Below are positions 35,575 through 49,381 of a stretch of DNA of 64,000 nucleotides, piece after piece. Position 1 is the stretch's first letter. The number at the start of each line of letters is the position of its first letter. The stretch is taken from positions 20,328 through 84,327 of the forward strand of contig CANQXP010000003.1 in NCBI GenBank assembly GCA_947627885.1. Direction: 5' to 3'. The translations under genes and the position numbers were made by a program. Source of the stretch: an uncultured Rikenella sp. GTDB lineage: Bacteria > Bacteroidota > Bacteroidia > Bacteroidales > Rikenellaceae. The notes beneath the pieces were generated by a model that saw only the letters and a program-made list of their open reading frames with translations, was not told the DNA's origin and did not search any database.

Positions 35575-36999
35575 TTATTCCTCTTTCCAATTTGCTAAAT
35601 GATTAAAATTTCTCCATTTGACCCAATCTAAATTAGTTACTATATTTTCCCTAGTAAAACCTATCTCCATTAGGAATGCACAGGTTAACAGTATCTTTAA
35701 CCTTTCTGACAAATAGAAAAGATCAGCTCCTTTAAGTGCTTTCTTTTCTAGTCGCTTGTCGTAATGAGTATAATAATTTCGAGAATTTTTAACATTCAAA
35801 ATAAACTTTTCCTTATCCCCTAATATCTGATCCAAAGTAGAGTTTGAATATTTATCTATCAGTTCGGTTAATCGAGAATGAAGATTTAAATAGTTCCCAA
35901 AATTGAATTGATCTTTCAACCATTCATGGTATTTGTTAGGGGCTAATTTAAGTATGTCGTTCTTCATTGCTTTATATTCATCTGGTGGTATTCTCGTATG
36001 GTCGTGGACTCTTGCATGAAATGTTTCTGCGGACTGAGCCAAATTTAGAAATGTATTTATAGTAAATCCTTTGGTGTAAAATTGTTCAAATAATAAATCA
36101 AATGCAGGCTCCAGTATTTCATATTTTTCATACCAATTCTTAATTATTTCATTTGGGTTATCTCCCAATTTGTGATATGTAAAAAGCATTTCTATATCCA
36201 TTTTTTCCTCCTCATCAAACTTTATATCTCTGGAAGAAAAGTATAGCTCAATTTTTTTATTGTGTAACTCTCCATTTCCATAATCTTTTTTATGTTTATT
36301 CCCTCGCAATGAAATGGCTATAGGATAAGTACTCCGATATAATGCAAGAGAGATAAAATTCTGAAATGTGAATAAATATTTCAATAAATTCTCGATCGTT
36401 TCCTCTCCTTGGGATTATACCTCAAATTCGACTCTCTGTTTTATCGTAACTATTTTTTGATGCCTAGTCCAATTCGATTCTTTTGCGCTAAAATTAAATC
36501 GTCCTTTAAATTCTTTTGAAATATCAAACTCTATAATCTCAGGTAATTTATAATGAATACAGCATTCATTATTCTTATATGATTCAACATTAAAGTCCTT
36601 TTTGAATCCACTGATTCCAAGCCATTCCCCTAGATTGAATATTTCGGCAGAGATTTTATTAAAAGTTAAATCACCCCTATTATATATATGAGTTCCTAGT
36701 AATAAGAAATGTGCAGAATAAGTTATAGTCGGTTTCCCGCATTCTTCTCCAACAATAAGTTTAGTGCTACCTCTTTTTGTTACGAGGCAACTAGATAGAG
36801 TTATTTGTTGGCTATCAGAAGTTATTCCTAAGATAATGCTTTCGTCTTTATCCTTAGGAAGGATAAAGCCATCCTCAAAACTTCCATATAATTTAAGCGT
36901 TATACCATCTAAGGGGAGATAGGCAAGTGTGCCCGAAACTCGATTTTCTCTGTTCGTAGGAAGAAACCACTCTCCAATATATTCAATCTTCTCTCTCAT
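35575..36999 (-). pseudogene. ApeA-like anti-phage HEPN protein interrupted by a single in-frame TAA (36415-36417)
   Basis: N-terminal ApeA-NTD-like part (GEWFLPTNRENRVSGTLAYLPLDGITLKLYG) and C-terminal HEPN part with RNYYTH (Rx4H); the two ORFs are in the same frame, joined by ..VEFEV*SQGEETIENLLKYLF.. Confidence 0.75.
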
Positions 37000-37096: not shown

Positions 37097-37700
37097 TTAT
37101 AACGGATATTCTTTCTTTACTTTTACATATTTAAATGCAATTAACTCTTTGTACTGTTCATCCATCCTTAAAGCCGTTACAAAATAGGCCAATGTAACCT
37201 TTTTGGGTAATCGCTTTCGCCGCTTATTTAATTGATAAGAGATATTCATTTCGTTGTCGGGCGGTAAATCGACACAGTTGTATTTAGTGGTAATGACGCT
37301 CATTGCATCCTTGTCCCATACAGGCGGGGTTACGCCTTTAGTCATGCAGAAGTCGCATATCGCCTTATAAAATCGGAGAACCGACTTGGTTATTAACTGC
37401 TGTGTAGCTTAATGATTGTTCCGTTATCTCATAGCCTTTGGGGATAGCCTTTATTACTCCCAATGCCTCGCATTCATTTAATAGGGCGGTTGTTTTATTT
37501 CGGCTTATCCCGATAGCTTTGGCAATCTTGGATTTGCTTCACAGAACGGTATCGGTATTATTAAGGCATATAGAACGCAACAATAGCATAAAACCTGCTA
37601 CCCCTGATTTTCGGGACAGGAGGGAGTGCGAGTATCCATTTCGAAAACCAATCGTTTACGACCAGTTCAGAGTGTTTGGTAGCAGTTCCGGCATCCATTA
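37097..37700 (-). pseudogene. mobile-element debris: HTH-like and other coding fragments
   Basis: minus-strand fragments NKTTALLNECEALGVIKAIPKGYEITEQSLS and ORF 37097..37345, without intact ORF structure. Confidence 0.35.
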
Positions 37701-37751
37701 CAGAGATTAATACGAAATATGTTTACTACTATCTGATAGGGAATATCCGTA

Positions 37752-38837
37752 TTGGAAAACGGGTTTAAAGGTGTGGCGCTCCAGCATATCCGCAGAGATT
37801 ACATTGAACAAATCGATATCCCGATCCGACCCAAAAAGAGACAGGATCAAATCGTCATTCTATTGGATCGTATATCGAATCTCATCCGCAGGCGTGTCGA
37901 AACGATTCGCTCCTGCGACGATCTGGGTAAATCTATGTTTATCAATAATTTCGGCGATCCTGCAATCAATCCTAAAAACTATCCAGTAGAGGTTTTACGT
38001 AATTACGTTGAGAAAATCCAGGGAGGACTGAACCTTAAGAATAAAAATGAAACTCGCAGCAATCCAGGGCAACGTGTATTACTTAAGCAGGATGCAATTA
38101 CAAAACGTTTTTTTGATCCTCAGCAGCATAAAGTTCTCTTGGATAATGTAAAGGAGCAGGATTCGAAGATGAAAATAGAACAGAATGATTTACTCATATC
38201 CAGAAAAAATACGAAAGAATTGGTCGGTGCCGCGGCCTTCGTATTCGATCCCTGTAATGATACTTATTTCCCTGACACTATACTGTGCCTCCATTATACA
38301 AGGCTAATTTCTGGAGTTTATCTATATTACTTATTGAATGACTTGAACTTCAGACGTAATTTTGAGAAAATTTCAGGTGGAACCATGGATTCAATGTCCA
38401 ACATCAGTCAGGAAAATATACTGAAGTTGCAAATTCCATATCCTCCATTCGAGGATCAAATGTCGTTTGAAAAAAACATTCGCCAAATCCATGAATACAA
38501 ACTTCGGCTGAGCGAAAATCTCAACAAGTTGAAGCAATTGTTGACTTTTTATTCAAAACAGGTCTTTGAAAAAAATATATTACTTGATATCGATTTTGAA
38601 TTAGACGTATTCATTGAATCCGTTGACTTAGAACGTAGACAAAATGATCTGAACCGAATGAAACGAGCTCCCATCTTACGCAAACTTGTCGATCGGATCA
38701 GTAATGCCTCCGACTTTTTTACGGATAAGGAGACTTATGTTAAGGCTGCCAAAGCAGTTTTACACCTGCTTTATGAAAAGGCTCTAAAGCAGAATTATGA
38801 TGAGGAAAATGAAGGAATTAAGCTGCAGGTAGAATGA
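37752..38837 (+). pseudogene. HsdS-like specificity subunit, 5'-truncated (one full TRD left) with C-terminal helical extension
   Basis: IPIRPKKRQDQIVILLDRISNLI, FINNFGDPAINPKNYPVEVL, LQIPYPPFEDQMSFEKNIRQI; no first TRD and no upstream methylase. Confidence 0.75.
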
Positions 38838-40518
38838 AACTCCTCCGTTTTAAAATAGGAAACCTTCCCGAAGGAACACAGTTTCGAAGTTTATATTCCG
38901 GATTCGAGATTTTATTCCATGAACCCGAGGTTGAGGGAATGGATACCCTCGGCCAATTCAATCCATTCTGTTTCGCAGGGTTAAATGGACGTGGGAAATC
39001 GAATGTCTTGGAGGCTCTAGCCACAATTTTTTCCCACTTAGAATGCTGTGTGGCCAAATTTTTACCGAAAACATTCGTTTCATTTCGTCCGGAAGTTTGT
39101 GCCGTAGACGCTTTTATCGTCGAATACCTAATTCAGCGACCGAACTCGTCCTATTCCTTGGATAATTTCGACCGGATAACTGTGTCGAAAAAATCCGGCG
39201 AAGCCCCTAAAATGTACCGGAGCACATTCCCAAGTACAGACAAGCGAAAAAATCTCCCTGAAACCTTTTTTAAACAAGTCAAGGGATATCGTGGAATCGG
39301 CTCCTGGGAAATTATATTTACCCGATATCATCGTAGGCTACTCATCGGGTGAGAACGAGATTCTGAGTGTCCCGTTTCGTAAGAGCAGGCTGATCAATTT
39401 TGATAAATATACAGAGGATTTTTTCCGGAATCGAACGTTTGAAATGCCAGAGAACAGCCTGATTTATATTGATGCGGGTATGAGTCAAGCTGTTCTGCTT
39501 GCGAATCTTTTGTTTGAAGACCATACGACAACTCTCAGTTCATTCAAAAAAATTCTTAAAATTCGGGATATTCTCAGCTTTAGAATGAATATCAATCTAC
39601 ATCGATATTCGGATGAGCAACACAGGTTAATCGTGGAGCATATTCAAGGCGAGATAGAAAAGCTCAAAAAGTGTGCTACCTGTTATTATGAACAACCCGA
39701 AAGGAGCGATGAAGAGGGTAGTGGCACCAGATCACTCGTACTTGACTTTTACGTGAATGACGTAACCCGGACTCTATTTCGCAAATACTTTAAATCGGCG
39801 TTCAACTTTTTTCGCTTTTTCCAGGTTCTCTATGAGTTGAATAACTACTTTATTCCTGAAAAGCTAAAACAAGATGTTTACACCTCCAAAGGAGTTTATA
39901 CCGAGGGGAAATTACCTGAAGGTAGTCCAGAGCAAAACATCTTCTATTTTCTCGACTTTTTCATCCTCAAGGAGACGGGTGCGAATACTCCCCCGAAGCC
40001 GCTGTTACTGAAAGAATTATCTGACGGAGAACATCAGTTTATCCATTCGATGTGTGTATGTCTGATGTTACGTGATCAAAGAAGTCTCTTGTTGTTGGAC
40101 GAACCCGAAACCCATTTCAATCCGGAATGGAGGTCGAAATTCATTCAGATGCTCAACCGGAGCCTGCAGGTCTGCGGGAATGTTAATTTACAGCAAGATG
40201 TGATCATTTATCATATCTGATTGCAAACCTTATAATGTTATAATTTTCAAACCGAACGAGCATGGACAACCGACTGCCATGAAAGCTGCCGCACTGCATA
40301 TCAAAACGTATGGAATGTCTGTAAATCTTCTGACTACAAGGGTTTTTGAAGAGGGACAAACCATAGGTGATTATGCGCTGGAGAAGATCAGATACTACCG
40401 ATGCCGATTATCCAAAGGTGAAAGAATTGAAAATTTACTCGATGAAATAAACCGTGAATTGGGGGATTCAGTAGAGAAACTCCTGCTGATCCATGAGTTT
40501 AATACCTATAATCAATAA
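38834..40518 (+). pseudogene. restriction-system-associated AAA/ABC-type ATPase (PtuA/Septu-like), two lesions
   Basis: Walker A FAGLNGRGKSNVLEAL; LKELSDGEHQF signature; SLLLLDEPETHFNPEWR Walker B; broken at about 39.28-39.31 kb and at 40.2 kb; ATGA overlap with the HsdS-like gene. Confidence 0.8.
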
Positions 40519-40625
40519 TGCTACAACCCTATCTTTATTAGAGACATCCGGTACAAAGGGCACAGTCATTTGTAAACTATCTTTTTTTAGAGGTAATTTT
40601 CAGAGCTTCTCGCCTTAGAAATAAG

Positions 40626-41502
40626 GTGTTCTCCCCTGCTATGGTAAAGCCGCTTAACTACCGTAAGCTCATCGAAGGGGTGGATTCGAAATACATGTTG
40701 ACTCCGTTAAAAAAGATATACTCCAAATGTAAGAATCTCCCCCGAAAAGACATAAAAATATTGAGTCGAGCTGTTCTTGCAAATAATTGCATTGAGGAAT
40801 TATGCAGGGCAAAGTATGCTCCTGTGCTATATAGCGATTTGGAAGCGATTGACAGAGAATTATCGGATACGATTAAATCCTTTTGTACGAACCTTTATAA
40901 GCATGTTATGCCGTCGGCGACCTTTATTAAAATTTTCGGGTCAATTGCTCAATACTATAAAACCCTGGCAGGAAATGGTCATGCCTGTCATTTTTGTGGA
41001 ATGGATAGTATTATTTCCCAATATGAAAAAAATAGAAGCGCGCTGGATCATTATTTTGCAAAAAGCTTATATCCATTTACTTCGGTAAATTTCCACAACT
41101 TAGTGCCTGCCTGTGAAAAATGTAATACCACATATAAACGGGATAAGAATATTTTATTTTTAAAGCCCCCTAAAAAATATAAAACAGTATTAGGAGCGCG
41201 CGTAAAAGCCTTTTATCCTTTCTGCAACGACACTCCCAATATCGATATCGCCGTTAAGTCCGGATGATTTTGACATGACAATTCAGAGTGCCGCTGCCCA
41301 ATAGGAAACGGAAAATTGGCGGAGAATTTACAACATTGATAGTCGATACAAGGCGTATTGTTGTTCGGACGCCATGAAAAGTTATATCGAACACCAATTT
41401 ATTGCCTTTGTAAACAAAGGGTTGCTTCCGCATGAATATATTAATTCATTAAAAACGAATCCGATGAATGAACAAAACTTCCTTAAAATTCCTTTTTTTT
41501 AG
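40626..41502 (+). pseudogene. HNH endonuclease (PtuB-like) with frameshift and in-frame TAG in the C-terminus
   Basis: CHFCGMDS...ALDHYFAKSLYPFTSVNFHNLVPACEKCNTTYK; downstream frame encodes ETENWRRIYNIDSRYKAYCCSDAMKSYIEHQ... Confidence 0.75.
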
Positions 41503-42195: not shown

Positions 42196-42516
42196 TTACC
42201 TCTTTGTCTGCTGTTCCTTATGATGCGCTATCAATTCCTGTAGGCATTCATCCGTGCTTTTGATTATTCGTTCCCGCAAGAGCTTTTTGATTTCGCGAAT
42301 TTGATAGTAATACTTTCCACCTATGCCGGAGTAGGCTATCTTCCCGTCCGACCTCAACCGTTGCAACGTCCGATTGCTGATCTTCAGAAAACCACAAATT
42401 TCGTGGCTATCCACCCAATCGTCACTCTCATCCACTGCTGGCGGTTTCAACGAACTCACATAATCGGACAAAGCATCCAGTTTCTCCATCAATTGCTTAA
42501 AGGACTTTGACTCCAT
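42196..42516 (-). CDS. HTH_17/excisionase-like DNA-binding protein typical of Bacteroidales mobile elements
   Basis: DDWVDSHEICGFLKISNRTLQRLRSDGKIAYSGIGGKYYYQIREIKKLL. Confidence 0.8.
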   Translation of the reverse strand: MESKSFKQLMEKLDALSDYVSSLKPPAVDESDDWVDSHEICGFLKISNRTLQRLRSDGKIAYSGIGGKYYYQIREIKKLLRERIIKSTDECLQELIAHHKEQQTKR

Positions 42517-42855
42517 TGTTATTACTTCCATTTTGCAAAATCGCTTACCGTGAAATCTATTGGAATCAATTTACAACCTAGTTCCTCGTTCAGTTGCCTC
42601 ATAAGAATAGGAGGAGAAAATCTGAAAAGTTGAAAATATCAAGTCAAAATTTAGTTATTGGCTGGCACAGATTTTAATACATTGCTGATAAGATATTAGC
42701 ATATAATGAATTTTATATGCGTTCCTCGGAGATTTTTTACGAGCATTTGAAGTCACAACTCACTTATTGTCAACAGGCATTCTTTATTCCTTAAGGATCA
42801 AAGAGATGGATTGTTGATTTTTACTATTATTAATTTGTCCGAAATTCATCAATGC

Positions 42856-43935
42856 TTAAAATCCCAGCGGGATCAAACCGAGATTATTGATCGACTCATT
42901 TGCAAATTGCAGTGATTCATGGACTTTCAAAACCTCCTCGTAGTCCCAGTATTTCACTTCGTCCTTCACCGATAAGGTCGCTACTTCCTTCTTTATTTTC
43001 TCAATCTGCTTCTGATCCGTGACAGCGATGATCCCCTGTACGGCTTTGTTGTTTTTCGCCTTCATCAGGTTCAGGATCAGGCTGTCGATCGAACCGCTGG
43101 TCTGAACCTCGAAAACATAGATAACACGTCCCATGTTGCCGATCGTGACCTCCCACACCGCATCGACAATCGCACCGGCGGCGATTTTCTTTTCCACATC
43201 AGCACTGAATCCCAAGAAGCGTCCGATGGCGGCGATTTTATCCCGAATGTCGTTATGAATAAATGCAGCCTCTTTGTTGTTTTTAGGGATCAACTCTTCC
43301 GTTCCCTTTTCATTCGTTGCTATCGGCTCAGGTGTCGCCCGGAATTCATGCCAGATAAATGAGTTCAGGGTCAGCATATCGAATACCTCGTCATACTTAT
43401 TGTCCTTTGCATAAGCGACAATCTCGCGCCCTTTCGCTGAAAGGTATTCATAGATCTTCCCGTTCAATCTCGCCTCATAACGAGGCAGGTCGGGAATTTG
43501 CAAGACGCTGAATCCGTTATACGTTTTTCGATTCCAAAGCAGGTATCGATCCGGATAGGTTTTGCAAAGCAACTCACTCATCATAGCTGGACCGACACCC
43601 TTAATCTTTGAACGAAATGCATCCCATCGCTTTTCAAGCGAAACAGATCCATAAATCAGGTTCGTGAATTGCTCCCTCAGCAAAGGCATGCCGTTGGCTT
43701 CGATAATATTATCCACCTGATAGTGCTTATTTCCCCACATCGCCATTGCCCATAATGGAGCAATGTAGTCGAAGAGTTCTTCTTCGGACATATTTTGCAG
43801 CCGTTCCTGGGTGTAGCCCCGAACCTTTGCCGCAAGCTGCTCCCGTTCGATCCGCTCCGTCGCCGCCTGATCTTTATTGGCCTTGAACCACTTTCTGAAA
43901 GCGGCCAGGTATTGTGTGAGTTGTTGGGTATTCAT
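42856..43935 (-). CDS. HhH-like + PD-(D/E)XK-like putative nuclease adjacent to RM genes
   Basis: KIKGVGPAMMSELLCKTYPDRYLLWN (HhH-like) and GAIVDAVWEVTIGNMGRVIYVFEVQTSGSIDS (candidate D..ExQ core). Confidence 0.5.
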   Translation of the reverse strand: MNTQQLTQYLAAFRKWFKANKDQAATERIEREQLAAKVRGYTQERLQNMSEEELFDYIAPLWAMAMWGNKHYQVDNIIEANGMPLLREQFTNLIYGSVSLEKRWDAFRSKIKGVGPAMMSELLCKTYPDRYLLWNRKTYNGFSVLQIPDLPRYEARLNGKIYEYLSAKGREIVAYAKDNKYDEVFDMLTLNSFIWHEFRATPEPIATNEKGTEELIPKNNKEAAFIHNDIRDKIAAIGRFLGFSADVEKKIAAGAIVDAVWEVTIGNMGRVIYVFEVQTSGSIDSLILNLMKAKNNKAVQGIIAVTDQKQIEKIKKEVATLSVKDEVKYWDYEEVLKVHESLQFANESINNLGLIPLGF

Positions 43936-44008
43936 ATTGAAGGCTATGAATTTAATTTTTCTCGATGCGAGTTCTGTCTTCCAAACAAGTTAGCTTTTGA
44001 CCTTCCGG

Positions 44009-45424
44009 TTATCCCAGTATTATTTTTTCAATTTTTGCCTTGGCTTGGTTTATTATTGTCATTGCTTCTTCTTCAAGTGAAGCTGCCTTGATGTACATTG
44101 CCTCAATATAATTGACTATTTCATTTTGATTATCCGGAATCAGAATTTGTTGTTTTAGAAAGCTGTTCATCACCAAATTGCGTATGCCATTTGTCTGACT
44201 TTGCATTGATTCTGTCGTTCCAACACGATACATGGTTGACAGGAAATGATAGACATATCTTGGATTGATCTCTTTTTTATCAATTCTTATTTTGTGGATA
44301 AAATTACTATAACCAAGAGTATGATGATCCAATATCTCTTTGGTAATTATCGCAACCCGCCCCACTGGTTGTTCTGGACTGCCTCCTGATTTCTCAATTA
44401 GAATATCATCTTCCTGTACATCCATTTTGTGGAGTTTGCTACTTTTTATCTTGCGGTATTTGACTCTGGAATTGTCCAATTTCAGATTATATTTCTTATC
44501 AAACTCTGTAGCACGTATTACTAAGCACTTCGTATAATCATCGCCTGTTTCTTCATTTTCCCCTATACCCTAGTCTCCTGCAATACTCGAAACAAGCATT
44601 TCATTTATAGTTTTTTTCTTTAGCTGACTTGTATCAATCAACTCTTTTATTTTTAATGTTTTATCATTATAAGAAAGTGGATTCAATCTTTCGCCTAAGA
44701 TGTCTGATAATTTCACTTCAAAAGCTAATTGTCGCTTCTGCTCCTTAGGAAGTACAATATTTAGTTGGTCGAGTAAATAGGTGTCAATGCTTTTTAAAAG
44801 TTCTTTTGCCTGTTGCTCTTTTGCTTGTTTTTCGGTTTGCGCTTTCGTATAAAAATTAATGATTTCCTTTTGAACCTCAATTGGGGGCAAAGGAATTTTG
44901 ATTGACTTTAAATAGGAACTTGACACGCGTTGTTGGCCTGCTGAACCACCAAAAGAATTTTTAGCCGATTCTAAGACTTTAGGGTCACGTAAAATATAAT
45001 GAACATATTCTATTAGAATATTTGTATTCTTAGGTCGAAGTACATAAAACTCCGTTGAGCCGCAGCCAACACCATTTTCAAGATTTCTAACAATCGCCGA
45101 TTTGCCATTTTGCATACAAGGTGTAATTTTAGCCCACAGCAAATCATTATTTTCAAATTTTGTAAAACCTTTATTGTTTGCAACTATCGTGGTTCTATAT
45201 TCGGAAATCACACCATTCTTTTCATCTATTACCTCCATCGGAATAAATGAAATTAGATCATCGTCAGATAGTCCTTGATAGTTGACCCTGGGATTTACAT
45301 GCAGCAAATTATGTAGTTCAATCGATGGATGAATTTTTGAAATAAAGTCAAATCTATCCTTATAAAAGGATACATCCAACCGACTGCCAAAACTCTGCGA
45401 TATATGTATTTTATTTACTTCCAT
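44009..45424 (-). pseudogene. hsdS: type I/IIB specificity subunit HsdS interrupted by a single in-frame TAG (44570-44572)
   Basis: ORFs 44570..45511 and 44009..44479 are in one frame: ..NEMLVSSIAGD*GIGENEETGDDYTKCLVIRATEFDKKYNLKLDNSRVKYRKI..; ATG overlaps hsdM stop region. Confidence 0.85.
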
Positions 45425-47423
45425 CGATAAACTCGTTAATCCGTTTTGCTGCTTCCGGTAATTCACTTCCCTCCATCTTTTTCCCGGTAGGATCGTAGCC
45501 GATATTTTCAATTTCCAACATCAAAACCTCATAATCCGAAGAGTACGTGAAAATGTGTTCTTTGTATAGCTCTAAGATGCGTTCAGCTCGTTGTTCTTTA
45601 TCTAAACCCTTTTCGCCTTTAACCAACATCTTAACGTCGCTAAGCGTTTGCTCGAACTGCGCTGTCAATGCTGCCGGGTGCTTTCTCAAAAAAAGTATAG
45701 AAGACTTTACGCTCGCTTTAACGTGCGAAAAAGTATGCAAGGGTAAGGATACGACCGCCATAATACGGAATTTCTCAATCATCCAATCTCGTACATACTG
45801 GTTTGTTGAGTTTGTCAATATGCCATCCGGAACAACGATCGCCAAATAACCGTTCTCGCAAAGGTATTTGTGGCAACGCTCCAGGAATAGAATTTCCGTA
45901 CTTTGAGACGACCGCCATTTATTTTTGCAACTGTCGTCTGCAATACGATCTTTGGGCTCCGTGAAACCGAGATTCCTTTCGAAGAGTTCATACTCCTTGT
46001 AATAACCGACCTCATCGGCCTTGATCGTAGAACCAAACGGCGGATTGGTCATAATGAGGTTGAATGTTCCATCCTGGAAATTGAGGTTCCTGTTTTCAGT
46101 TTCTACAGAGCGGTTGTTTTTCAAACCGTCATTGGTAATGATATTCGTATGGCCATCGTCGTGAATAATCATATTCATCTTAGCCACACGAGAAATCTGT
46201 TCGTTTATCTCGATACCGTACAGTTTTTTCTCTGCAAAGTCATGCCAGTATGTATGCCATGAACTGCCGCGATTTTCCCCATATATTTCATTCGCTTCAT
46301 CCCGGACTGTTTTCAACGCGTGAAGCAAAAAGCCCCCGCTACCGCACGAGGTGTCCAATACTTTCCAATCCTTGTCTACGCCTATCGATTTAACCACAAA
46401 ATCGACAATAACGTCCGGTGTAAAGAACTGGCCGAAATCGCCACGGAAGAACTCGCCCATAAAACTCTGGAATGCCAATCCTTTGGCGTCGAGGTCTGTT
46501 TTAGAGAGGTTGATGTCCTGTAGATACTGAACGACTGTAAATATCTTATTCTTATCCAGTTTGATGTCGTCTTTAAATACCTCCGGGTCTTTCTTGCGAC
46601 CGTGCTCGTACAAATCCCGAATACGCTTCTCAAGCTCCGTTTTCGCTTTTGTATTCAGCTTGTCTTCTTTGTCTTCCGGATAATAAATGATCTGGAACGC
46701 GAAGGGTTCGCCCTTGCTTTTAGGGGCATTATCCACCCATCGTTCATCCCAAATCTTGCAGAAAATCAATTTGTCCAACTCATCAAAAGCAGTCGTTGGG
46801 GCCAATGCGCCGCCGCCCCACAGGGCATCGTGTGCCAATTTGAATTTCAAAATCAACTCACTCTGCAACCCCTTTGCCGGTTCAATACTACCTTTCACAT
46901 ATTTAAACCGCTTTACTTCTCCGTCACGCTTGGGAATGTCGCTAATGCTGATTCGCTCAACAGGCGCAACTTTGGCAATTTCGAAATACTCATCTTTGAT
47001 ACCCGATGTTACCCACACATAAGCGGCAGCCTTTGCATGGGCATAACTATATGCCTGGTCAACAGCTATCTGAAACTGCCGTTCGTTGATGTTTTCCTCT
47101 TTACATTCGACAACGATAAGTATCTTATTATTTTTATCGTTGTAAACCAATATATCGGCTTCTCTGGTTTCCGAGCCCATTTGCACAGATTCATTAACCG
47201 AAATATTCTGCGGCAAATAATTGTACTCATAAATCAATTTCAAAAAAGCCTCGGCCTGGACAGGTTCTTCGGGGTTCAATAACCGCCGGGGTTTATTGGC
47301 GTTCTTGCAATTGTATTTGATGGAGGACATATCATCATTGATGACAATATGTTTATCCTTTATTCCCCTTTGGAAAAGTTCTGTTGATAAGAGTTCCTTA
47401 ACCTCTTCCGGAGTTTTTGCCAT
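45411..47423 (-). CDS. N-6 adenine DNA methyltransferase with N-terminal HsdR_N-like nuclease domain (BcgI-like/type IIB arrangement)
   Basis: EADILVYNDKNNKILIVVECKEEN (PD-ExK) then FGQFFTPDVIVDFVV, VLDTSCGSGGFLLHAL, MTNPPFG. Confidence 0.88.
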   Translation of the reverse strand: MAKTPEEVKELLSTELFQRGIKDKHIVINDDMSSIKYNCKNANKPRRLLNPEEPVQAEAFLKLIYEYNYLPQNISVNESVQMGSETREADILVYNDKNNKILIVVECKEENINERQFQIAVDQAYSYAHAKAAAYVWVTSGIKDEYFEIAKVAPVERISISDIPKRDGEVKRFKYVKGSIEPAKGLQSELILKFKLAHDALWGGGALAPTTAFDELDKLIFCKIWDERWVDNAPKSKGEPFAFQIIYYPEDKEDKLNTKAKTELEKRIRDLYEHGRKKDPEVFKDDIKLDKNKIFTVVQYLQDINLSKTDLDAKGLAFQSFMGEFFRGDFGQFFTPDVIVDFVVKSIGVDKDWKVLDTSCGSGGFLLHALKTVRDEANEIYGENRGSSWHTYWHDFAEKKLYGIEINEQISRVAKMNMIIHDDGHTNIITNDGLKNNRSVETENRNLNFQDGTFNLIMTNPPFGSTIKADEVGYYKEYELFERNLGFTEPKDRIADDSCKNKWRSSQSTEILFLERCHKYLCENGYLAIVVPDGILTNSTNQYVRDWMIEKFRIMAVVSLPLHTFSHVKASVKSSILFLRKHPAALTAQFEQTLSDVKMLVKGEKGLDKEQRAERILELYKEHIFTYSSDYEVLMLEIENIGYDPTGKKMEGSELPEAAKRINEFIDGSK

Positions 47424-48139
47424 ATCTATTTTCCGTCTTTACTATTAATTGATTTCTTGGGGCAACTTGCAGTATCTTAACTATCACGAATAGTAATTCA
47501 AGGTTAGGTTGTCTACGATTACAAACATAGGCATTAGTTTGACAAAGCACTTGCCTATGTTTTTACTAACTAAGCTTGTTTAAGATATTTATAATCTGCA
47601 ACTTCCTTTATTCTCTTGATGGTTGTGCGTATCTCATGTGGATTATTCCTTATTGTAAAGATAAGGAATATTATGCTATGCAAAATATAATCGAGTTGAA
47701 GCTTTTGTCTTTTCATACTAATTTTCTGTTTGCATAGCGCGTATGGCATAATCCTAAAAAACTATTAATTTTCACATGCTCTTCTGGGTTGGTGATGATA
47801 TCGTGATATTTGTAAATGGTGTGGGGTTAGTTTCCGCTTATCCGTAATCAGAGGCGGATGCTCATGCGGGCGCAGATTTTTTGCGAGTTTATAATTCACC
47901 TGACAGCTTACGTACTTGACCATGGCATACAGATGCATTCCACTAATGCGGGAAAGACATAGTTAAATAGTGCGTCGCCTCGTAACACTGGTAATCCCAT
48001 TTATCTGGTCGATCAATAGGACTCTGACGATCCGGTCGAATTTGATCTATTCATAGAAGATCATACAGCCCCAATGCATGTATACAGAATTTATAAACAA
48101 GCCGTCCGATCAAGTCATAAAAATCTTCCATCATATAAT

Positions 48140-49381
48140 TCAATTACTTGTTTTACCTATTTTAGCGATTATTCCTCCGACTTCTTTCTTTTGGTCTTGA
48201 TCGAAATTTCCAAGATATTTTTCAGTAGTGGAAATTGAAGTATGCCCAAGACCCTGAAACATTGTTTTTCATAAGAATAGTGGCCCATGTATGACGAGCC
48301 ACGACAGTTGTGGCTCGGTTTTTTATATCGAGTTTTCTGATTATTTTCCTCATCGCTTCATTTATTACCCGTACAGCAAGACGGGCAGTGTCGGTTCGTG
48401 CTTCGGCATCCATGGTCTCGTCGAAAACCCCGAAAATAAATTTATCCTTCTTACGCCGGCCCGGAATTGCCCAGCGGTCAATAATATCTATAGCCTGAGG
48501 TATAAGATAAATTTCAATTTGGGTCGCTTGCCTGGAAGTATATTTCGTTTTTTCCCGGACAAAGTACAGAAACCCATTCTTTATGTTTTCCCATTTCAGA
48601 TTGAATATATCGATCATATTCATTCCATTACAGTAGAAACTGAATAGCCATATATCGCGCCCCCAAGCTTCCTCTTCGGCTGGCTTGTAGTCTATGATTT
48701 TCTTTAATTCCTCCTCTTCCAATGCCCGTTTGCTTGTCCGCGCATTAGGGATTTCATATTTATTGTGAACCCTTCTCCCGAACGGATAATGATAACTCCC
48801 CGGTAACGCGCCATATTAACGATTGCCCGCAAATGCCTAAGCTGGATACCGATAGTCGAAAATCCGTATTTTTTCCTGAGCATATGACGTTCATATTTGT
48901 TTAGGAATTCGACTGTAATATTGTGGAATCTAAGCCGCTTCCTGAAAGTCATTAACGACTCCATCGAATGCTGATAGATTAAAGCCGAACCAATGCGGTC
49001 CTCTTTCTTTAATACCGCTATCTTTTCCTTGTAAGTGGCATACACATCTGTTTCGTCGTATTTGGGTGCTTCACGACCGAACATCTTTTGTTCGAACTCT
49101 TCGAAAGTAAAGTAATCGCCCAACAGCCGAATTATCTCACTCGCTTTTGCCTGTATCGCAACAAGTGCTCCTTTTTTATTATCACCTGTATTAAACATCG
49201 AATGGGACTTAAGTTTGTCTCATTCTTTGCGTGTAACATAAATATTGAGAGGATAACTTTTCTTCTCCTGTCTGTAGACGTTTATAAATAGACGCAGGTT
49301 GTACTGTCCCGACTTCAACTTGCGCCGGAAGTCCGGCCTTATGATTACACTTATTTCAAGATCAAATTTATGTTCGTACAT
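48140..49381 (-). pseudogene. tyrosine recombinase/integrase with in-frame TGA and two frameshift/deletion lesions
   Basis: N-terminus MYEHKFDLEISVIIRPDFRRKLKSGQYNLRLFINVYRQEKKSYPLNIYVTRKE*DKLKSHSMFNTGDNKKGA; C-terminus VARHTWATILMKNNV and QGLGHTSISTTEKYLGNF in another frame. Confidence 0.85.

Follow-up and report, generated by a model that had tools for sequence, protein, structure and literature searches.

A decayed M-S-AAA-HNH module in an uncultured Rikenella genome, and its intact relatives with and without HsdR

Known ATPase–nuclease pairs and the locus in the window

Septu, which includes the effectors of retrons Ec78/Eco7, is a two-gene system independent of restriction enzymes, in which an ABC ATPase, PtuA, stands beside an HNH nuclease, PtuB. 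PtuA-PtuB requires its Walker and HNH residues, the catalytic pair of PtuB being numbered H75 and N91, and cleaves tRNA-Tyr (PMC13096335). An ABC-ATPase nuclease is also found inside type I restriction loci, in the case of PrrC with EcoprrI and of RloC. PrrC is reported to be invariably linked to a type Ic system, to be silenced by it and to be activated by the phage Stp peptide (PMC2610378). ABC ATPase-nuclease pairs, HNH included, that are attached to modification systems as back-up effectors are presented in PMC12839542, among them the OLD-ABC plus HNH dyads of BREX; for RM-like systems, that paper refers to Krishnan et al. 2020. Finally, the NCBIfam family TIGR04435 (restrict_AAA_1) carries the name 'restriction system-associated AAA family ATPase', so that the link of this ATPase to restriction is already a matter of curated record.

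The locus described here lies in the window, i.e. the whole 64,000-nucleotide stretch of DNA that was analysed, from an uncultured Rikenella sp. An HsdS remnant, an ATPase and an HNH gene follow one another head to tail at ~37604–41499, and every gene is broken. The parts are as follows.

37604..37753 (+): HsdS N-terminal remnant in another frame, matching residues 52-103 of the S protein of the Alistipes MAG relative L053 (tblastn with the S proteins of L053 and L032 as queries)
37752..38837 (+): HsdS specificity subunit remnant, 361 aa (Methylase_S, E 5e-6)
38652..38834 (+): winged-helix-like C-terminal tail of S, ~last 60 residues (tail profile 29.3 bits; model pLDDT 89, helix-helix-hairpin order)
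38834..39217 (+): N-terminal piece of the PtuA-like ABC ATPase (TIGR04435, 111 bits), with Walker A GLNGRGKS at 38978-39001
39246..40208 (+): middle piece of the ATPase, frameshifted (TIGR04435, 341 bits; 55% identical to L053)
40204..40500 (+): C-terminal piece of the ATPase in the third frame (TIGR04435, 56 bits)
40515..41249 (+): gene of the HNH endonuclease, whose frame meets a stop after 7 codons; the core is intact
41263..41499 (+): HNH C-terminal remnant in another frame, with one in-frame stop

The initial annotation of this DNA had described an HsdS-like protein with an additional C-terminal region, overlapping by ATGA with an AAA/ABC ATPase that was followed by an HNH protein, in a decayed locus devoid of methylase. 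All of these elements were recovered. The S remnant begins further upstream than had been thought, at ~37604 and in a different frame. The 37752-38837 frame is without residues 1 to ~100 of an intact S; counted from ~37604, alignment with intact relatives shows that ~50 N-terminal residues are gone. The ATPase starts inside the stop codon of S (ATGA, 38834-38837), and its three pieces match successive parts of TIGR04435. They are separated by two breaks, one between 39217 and 39246 and one near 40204 that costs the protein ~four residues at the H-loop. Besides the Walker A, the LSDGE signature (40017-40031) and the Walker B LLLLDEPE (40086-40109) are readable, as is the HNH core CxxC-DH-N-CxxCN at 40986-41126. 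Neither the window nor the rest of the genome, which is 79% complete, yielded any trace of the cognate methylase. The search returned an N6-methylase at 45411-47423 as a weak and unrelated match; it was rejected as the missing partner because it lies on the opposite strand, is 27% identical over part of its length only and has S genes of its own. The type I components, an N6-methylase M and S, are both present in the intact relatives, and M has been lost here. The window copy is a dead copy of an M-S-AAA-HNH module.

The window ATPase is a member of TIGR04435, its middle piece alone scoring above the family cut-off of 300. The likeness to Septu proposed at first proved partial. On the ATPase side, the protein belongs to the PtuA-like group: the ATPase profile of the module ranks PtuA structures first, and the best PADLOC profile for the L053 ATPase is a PtuA (188 bits). 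The family is nevertheless a separately curated one, and the first ATPase piece of the window, taken by itself, scores 13 bits with NCBIfam PtuA, where the cut-off is 500. On the nuclease side, the HNH protein falls short of a full-length PtuB. It has long helical flanks and matches PtuB only over the 50-70-residue catalytic core, with 14.6 bits for NCBIfam PtuB against a cut-off of 150 and a PADLOC match likewise restricted to the core. Within that core the H-x15-N spacing is the same as that of H75/N91 (H180 and N196 in L053; invariant in 44/44). The PADLOC-DB candidates PDC-M01 and PDC-M62, which also consist of an ATPase plus an HNH, are the best PADLOC matches of the HNH core, and span only ~50-130 residues of the HNH protein and part of the ATPase. 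Since Pfam gave no domain in the HNH gene, its recognition rested on the PADLOC cores and on alignment. No solved structure was matched by the HNH model (pLDDT 89) in Foldseek, and none came up when a profile of the HNH family was run against solved structures. In the annotated plasmid loci the HNH partner is called 'hypothetical protein' by NCBI in four cases out of four.

Gene order in the intact relatives

Relatives were gathered by their ATPase only; their neighbouring genes are therefore unselected. The 42 intact loci comprise 25 from GTDB genomes, 13 from two samples of ~400 genomes each and 4 from plasmids. The initial annotation had proposed a search for intact methylase-S-AAA-HNH operons in other genomes, and these turned out to be widespread and invariant in order. 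The HNH gene lies directly downstream of the ATPase in all 42. S lies directly upstream of it in 41, mostly through the ATGA overlap seen in the window (4 nt in 30 loci), and nearly all readable loci have a methylase with an NPPF motif beside S. The neighbour of each intact TIGR04435 locus is either S or a methylase-like partner. Nearly all 42 loci have retained the ATPase motifs GxNGxGKS, SDGE, DEPE and THSP as well as the HNH core; the core residues C, C, D, H, N, C and N are invariant in 44/44 aligned proteins, window included, and NPPF is kept in every M read except that of L048. M, S with a predicted winged-helix tail, a PtuA-like ABC ATPase and an HNH protein form an obligate four-gene module, with HsdR upstream as an optional addition. 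Unlike Septu, the module was always accompanied by M-S in the loci read, as judged from gene content. It differs from PrrC, a one-chain anticodon nuclease that goes with a complete R-M-S, in having two chains, an HNH nuclease and often no R.

The sources are mostly Bacteroidota, and also proteobacteria, Desulfobacula, a myxococcal MAG, a cyanobacterial plasmid and a Priestia plasmid. In two samples around the organism of the window, the TIGR04435 cut-off was passed in 8 of 396 and 8 of 395 genomes. Among 399 genomes around a gammaproteobacterial member, only the already known genome passed, and one more had a frameshifted copy. The ATPase was not found in phage records.

Several loci carry further genes. 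A tyrosine integrase (L079:4508-5680) stands directly upstream of an S-AAA-HNH set without adjacent methylase, as in phase-variable S loci. An AbiEi-AbiEii pair lies upstream of M in L036 (4960-6545), and a homologous gene pair is found in L054 (4176-5788). Inserts between M and S (L044:6973-8025, L066:5710-7427) include a DUF1016 PDDEXK nuclease and, in the other locus, a membrane protein with a protein annotated as a GIY-YIG nuclease.

Full-length PtuB-like proteins next to PtuA-like ATPases, adjoining M and S, occur in seven more distant relatives with scores under the TIGR04435 cut-off (L085, L086, L088-L091 and L093); Septu-type pairs proper are therefore also attached to M-S. The gene order in L086 is S-PtuA-PtuB-M, and several S proteins of this set end in a different winged-helix-like tail.

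The C-terminal tail of S

At their C-terminus, the S proteins of the module carry a tail of ~60-90 residues. It was recognised in 35 of 41 proteins, with the protein's own cluster held out, above the best of ~26 control S proteins. With the full profile, the S protein of the window scores 29 bits and that of L141, which was outside the training set, 22.7 bits, as against at most 2.6 bits for the controls, from which the extension noticed at first is thus absent. That this extension follows the ATPase, as initially suspected, agrees with a search of 295 genomes of the class with the profile, which is not very sensitive: the three significant matches, in three genomes, were each on an S protein beside the ATPase, and four further hits did not exceed chance level. 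AlphaFold2 predicts for the window's own tail helices followed by a β-hairpin, in winged-helix order (pLDDT 89). A fold search with the tail gave no significant match, the winged-helix matches being all insignificant. A resemblance to the kleisin C-terminal domains that bind SMC heads is only suggestive (E 1.7, probability 0.38) and was discarded as evidence.

In four of eight close pairs of loci, the tail is 67-80% identical while the S body is only 30-44% identical, the target domains having been swapped; in the other four, tail and body diverge alike. The former pattern, which is indirect evidence, fits a coupling domain constrained to match the ATPase, with target domains that are free to change.

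It is unlikely, in our view, that the genes merely travel together, i.e. that an orphan methylase-S pair was joined in one operon with an independent Septu-like pair for co-transfer only, with no functional coupling. Defence genes do cluster, AbiE, SIR2, patatin and the DUF1016 nuclease being found in the same operons, and PtuA relatives that are more distant can lack M-S (L095, L096). However, 42 loci from several phyla show no variation in linkage, order or adjacency, and the tail is specific to the S proteins linked to the ATPase.

In L048, a 693-residue methylase-like protein (L048:7440-9521) takes the place of S between a patatin-like protein and the ATPase-HNH pair. Motif I is present, NPSI replaces NPPF, and the protein carries the S-type tail too (12.8 bits). 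It may be a methylase that has lost catalysis and serves as a sensor.

HsdR in the module and the proposed role of the ATPase-HNH pair

HsdR is present in 20 of the 42 loci and absent or replaced in 18; four are unreadable, the contigs ending too early. Where present, it sits directly upstream of M with its helicase motifs intact. Among the 18 loci without it, 15 have nothing in its place, its slot is occupied by a SIR2-domain protein in L040 and by a patatin-like protein in L048, and L079 has neither M nor R upstream. In the ATPase tree, the window falls into a 13-row clade (support 99/100) together with Bacteroides fluxus (L032) and an Alistipes MAG (L053). This clade consists of 11 R-less rows, one R-bearing row and the window; HsdR is thus absent from the window and from 11 of the 12 intact loci of its clade, and is present in other clades. 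The R-less label needs ~nine changes on the tree.

We regard it as very unlikely that the ATPase and HNH only assist a classical HsdR enzyme, for example by clearing or processing cut DNA. Such a role would suit the 20 of 38 readable loci that keep an intact HsdR directly upstream, but not the 18 of 38 that have none, nor a well-supported clade dominated by the R-less state. Nor do these counts support, as the whole story, the back-up effector that the initial annotation saw in the pair. Moreover, cognate-type HsdR (EcoEI_R_C) is missing genome-wide in 13 of 14 R-less genomes. Most of these carry other, unrelated HsdR proteins, which could act in trans. The HNH gene is under purifying selection in two R-less pairs, with dN/dS values of 0.12 and, at near-saturated dS, ~0.05. 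Taken together, the R-less loci and clade, the missing cognate HsdR and the selection on HNH indicate that the ATPase-HNH pair is more than a spare for HsdR. It seems to provide the restriction system with an alternative cutting arm and, judging from gene content, can be the sole nuclease of the operon.

We favour, with a probability of about 0.5, a reading in which M-S, through the S tail, licenses the ATPase-HNH effector, either beside HsdR or without it. M-S would recognise its own sequence on unmodified incoming DNA, and the winged-helix tail of S would dock the ABC ATPase dimer. Binding and hydrolysis of ATP would then free or activate the HNH nuclease, which would be an effector beside HsdR where the latter is present and the only effector where it is absent. 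We infer both the trigger and the target of the HNH, which may be invading DNA or, as for Septu, host RNA.

The main rival is a guard of the PrrC kind, a possible though doubtful account. M-S, or R-M-S, would silence the ATPase-HNH pair until a phage anti-restriction protein hits M-S and frees it; the HNH would then disable the host, possibly by tRNA cleavage, and M-S would be a decoy in R-less loci. The silencing of PrrC by a type Ic system and its activation by phage Stp (PMC2610378) provide a precedent, as does tRNA-Tyr cleavage by Septu PtuA-PtuB (PMC13096335). The invariable linkage to M-S is also expected under such a scheme, and another HsdR is encoded in most R-less genomes, so that an Ocr-like inhibitor could still matter. 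However, M-S alone protects nothing in R-less loci, which leaves no evident function to be guarded, and the target domains of S keep swapping in R-less pairs too, favouring a role for sequence recognition.

More tentatively, M-S-AAA-HNH may constitute a separate, HsdR-less class of restriction. There, a winged-helix arm of S would dock the ABC-ATPase head as kleisin does that of SMC, an unmethylated site would lead to HNH activation, and the R slot would be free for HsdR, SIR2, patatin or nothing.

The HNH proteins are only ~36-41% identical in the pairs L043/L056, L057/L059 and L040/L061. In two of these three pairs, the ATPase and methylase beside them are 84-93% identical, as if the nuclease had been exchanged or were diversifying fast. 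Because of this divergence beside nearly constant partners, the HNH may answer to something other than M-S.

The name of TIGR04435 does not cover the HNH pairing, the R-less lineage or the S tail. Our literature search found no paper naming TIGR04435, nor any description of the R-less lineage or the S tail, and the accessible part of PMC12839542 describes neither of these two features nor the obligate four-gene order. The obligate pairing with HNH, the R-less lineage and the S tail appear to be undescribed so far. If M-S does license the ATPase-HNH effector, the recognition part of a restriction system would drive a Septu-type effector directly, joining two defence families that are usually treated apart. 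The S tail would then offer a defined physical handle on the triggering of Septu-like ATPases, and what is annotated as an orphan methylase with an S gene may in fact be a complete defence system, its nuclease passing for a hypothetical protein.

Other defence genes flank the locus. A broken ApeA-type (HEPN) gene lies at 35575-36999 (-), split so that ApeA_NTD1 is in one ORF and the HEPN part in the next (PDC-S58/Cas13-ApeA profiles). A second defence locus, at 42196-49198 (-), contains an N6-methylase fused to an HSDR_N-like domain (670 aa), a frameshift-split S gene, a 359-aa protein with only a weak match and a small HTH protein. It also includes a split tyrosine integrase at 48222-49198, which suggests a mobile element. 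Some 14 kb of the window are thus a defence graveyard.
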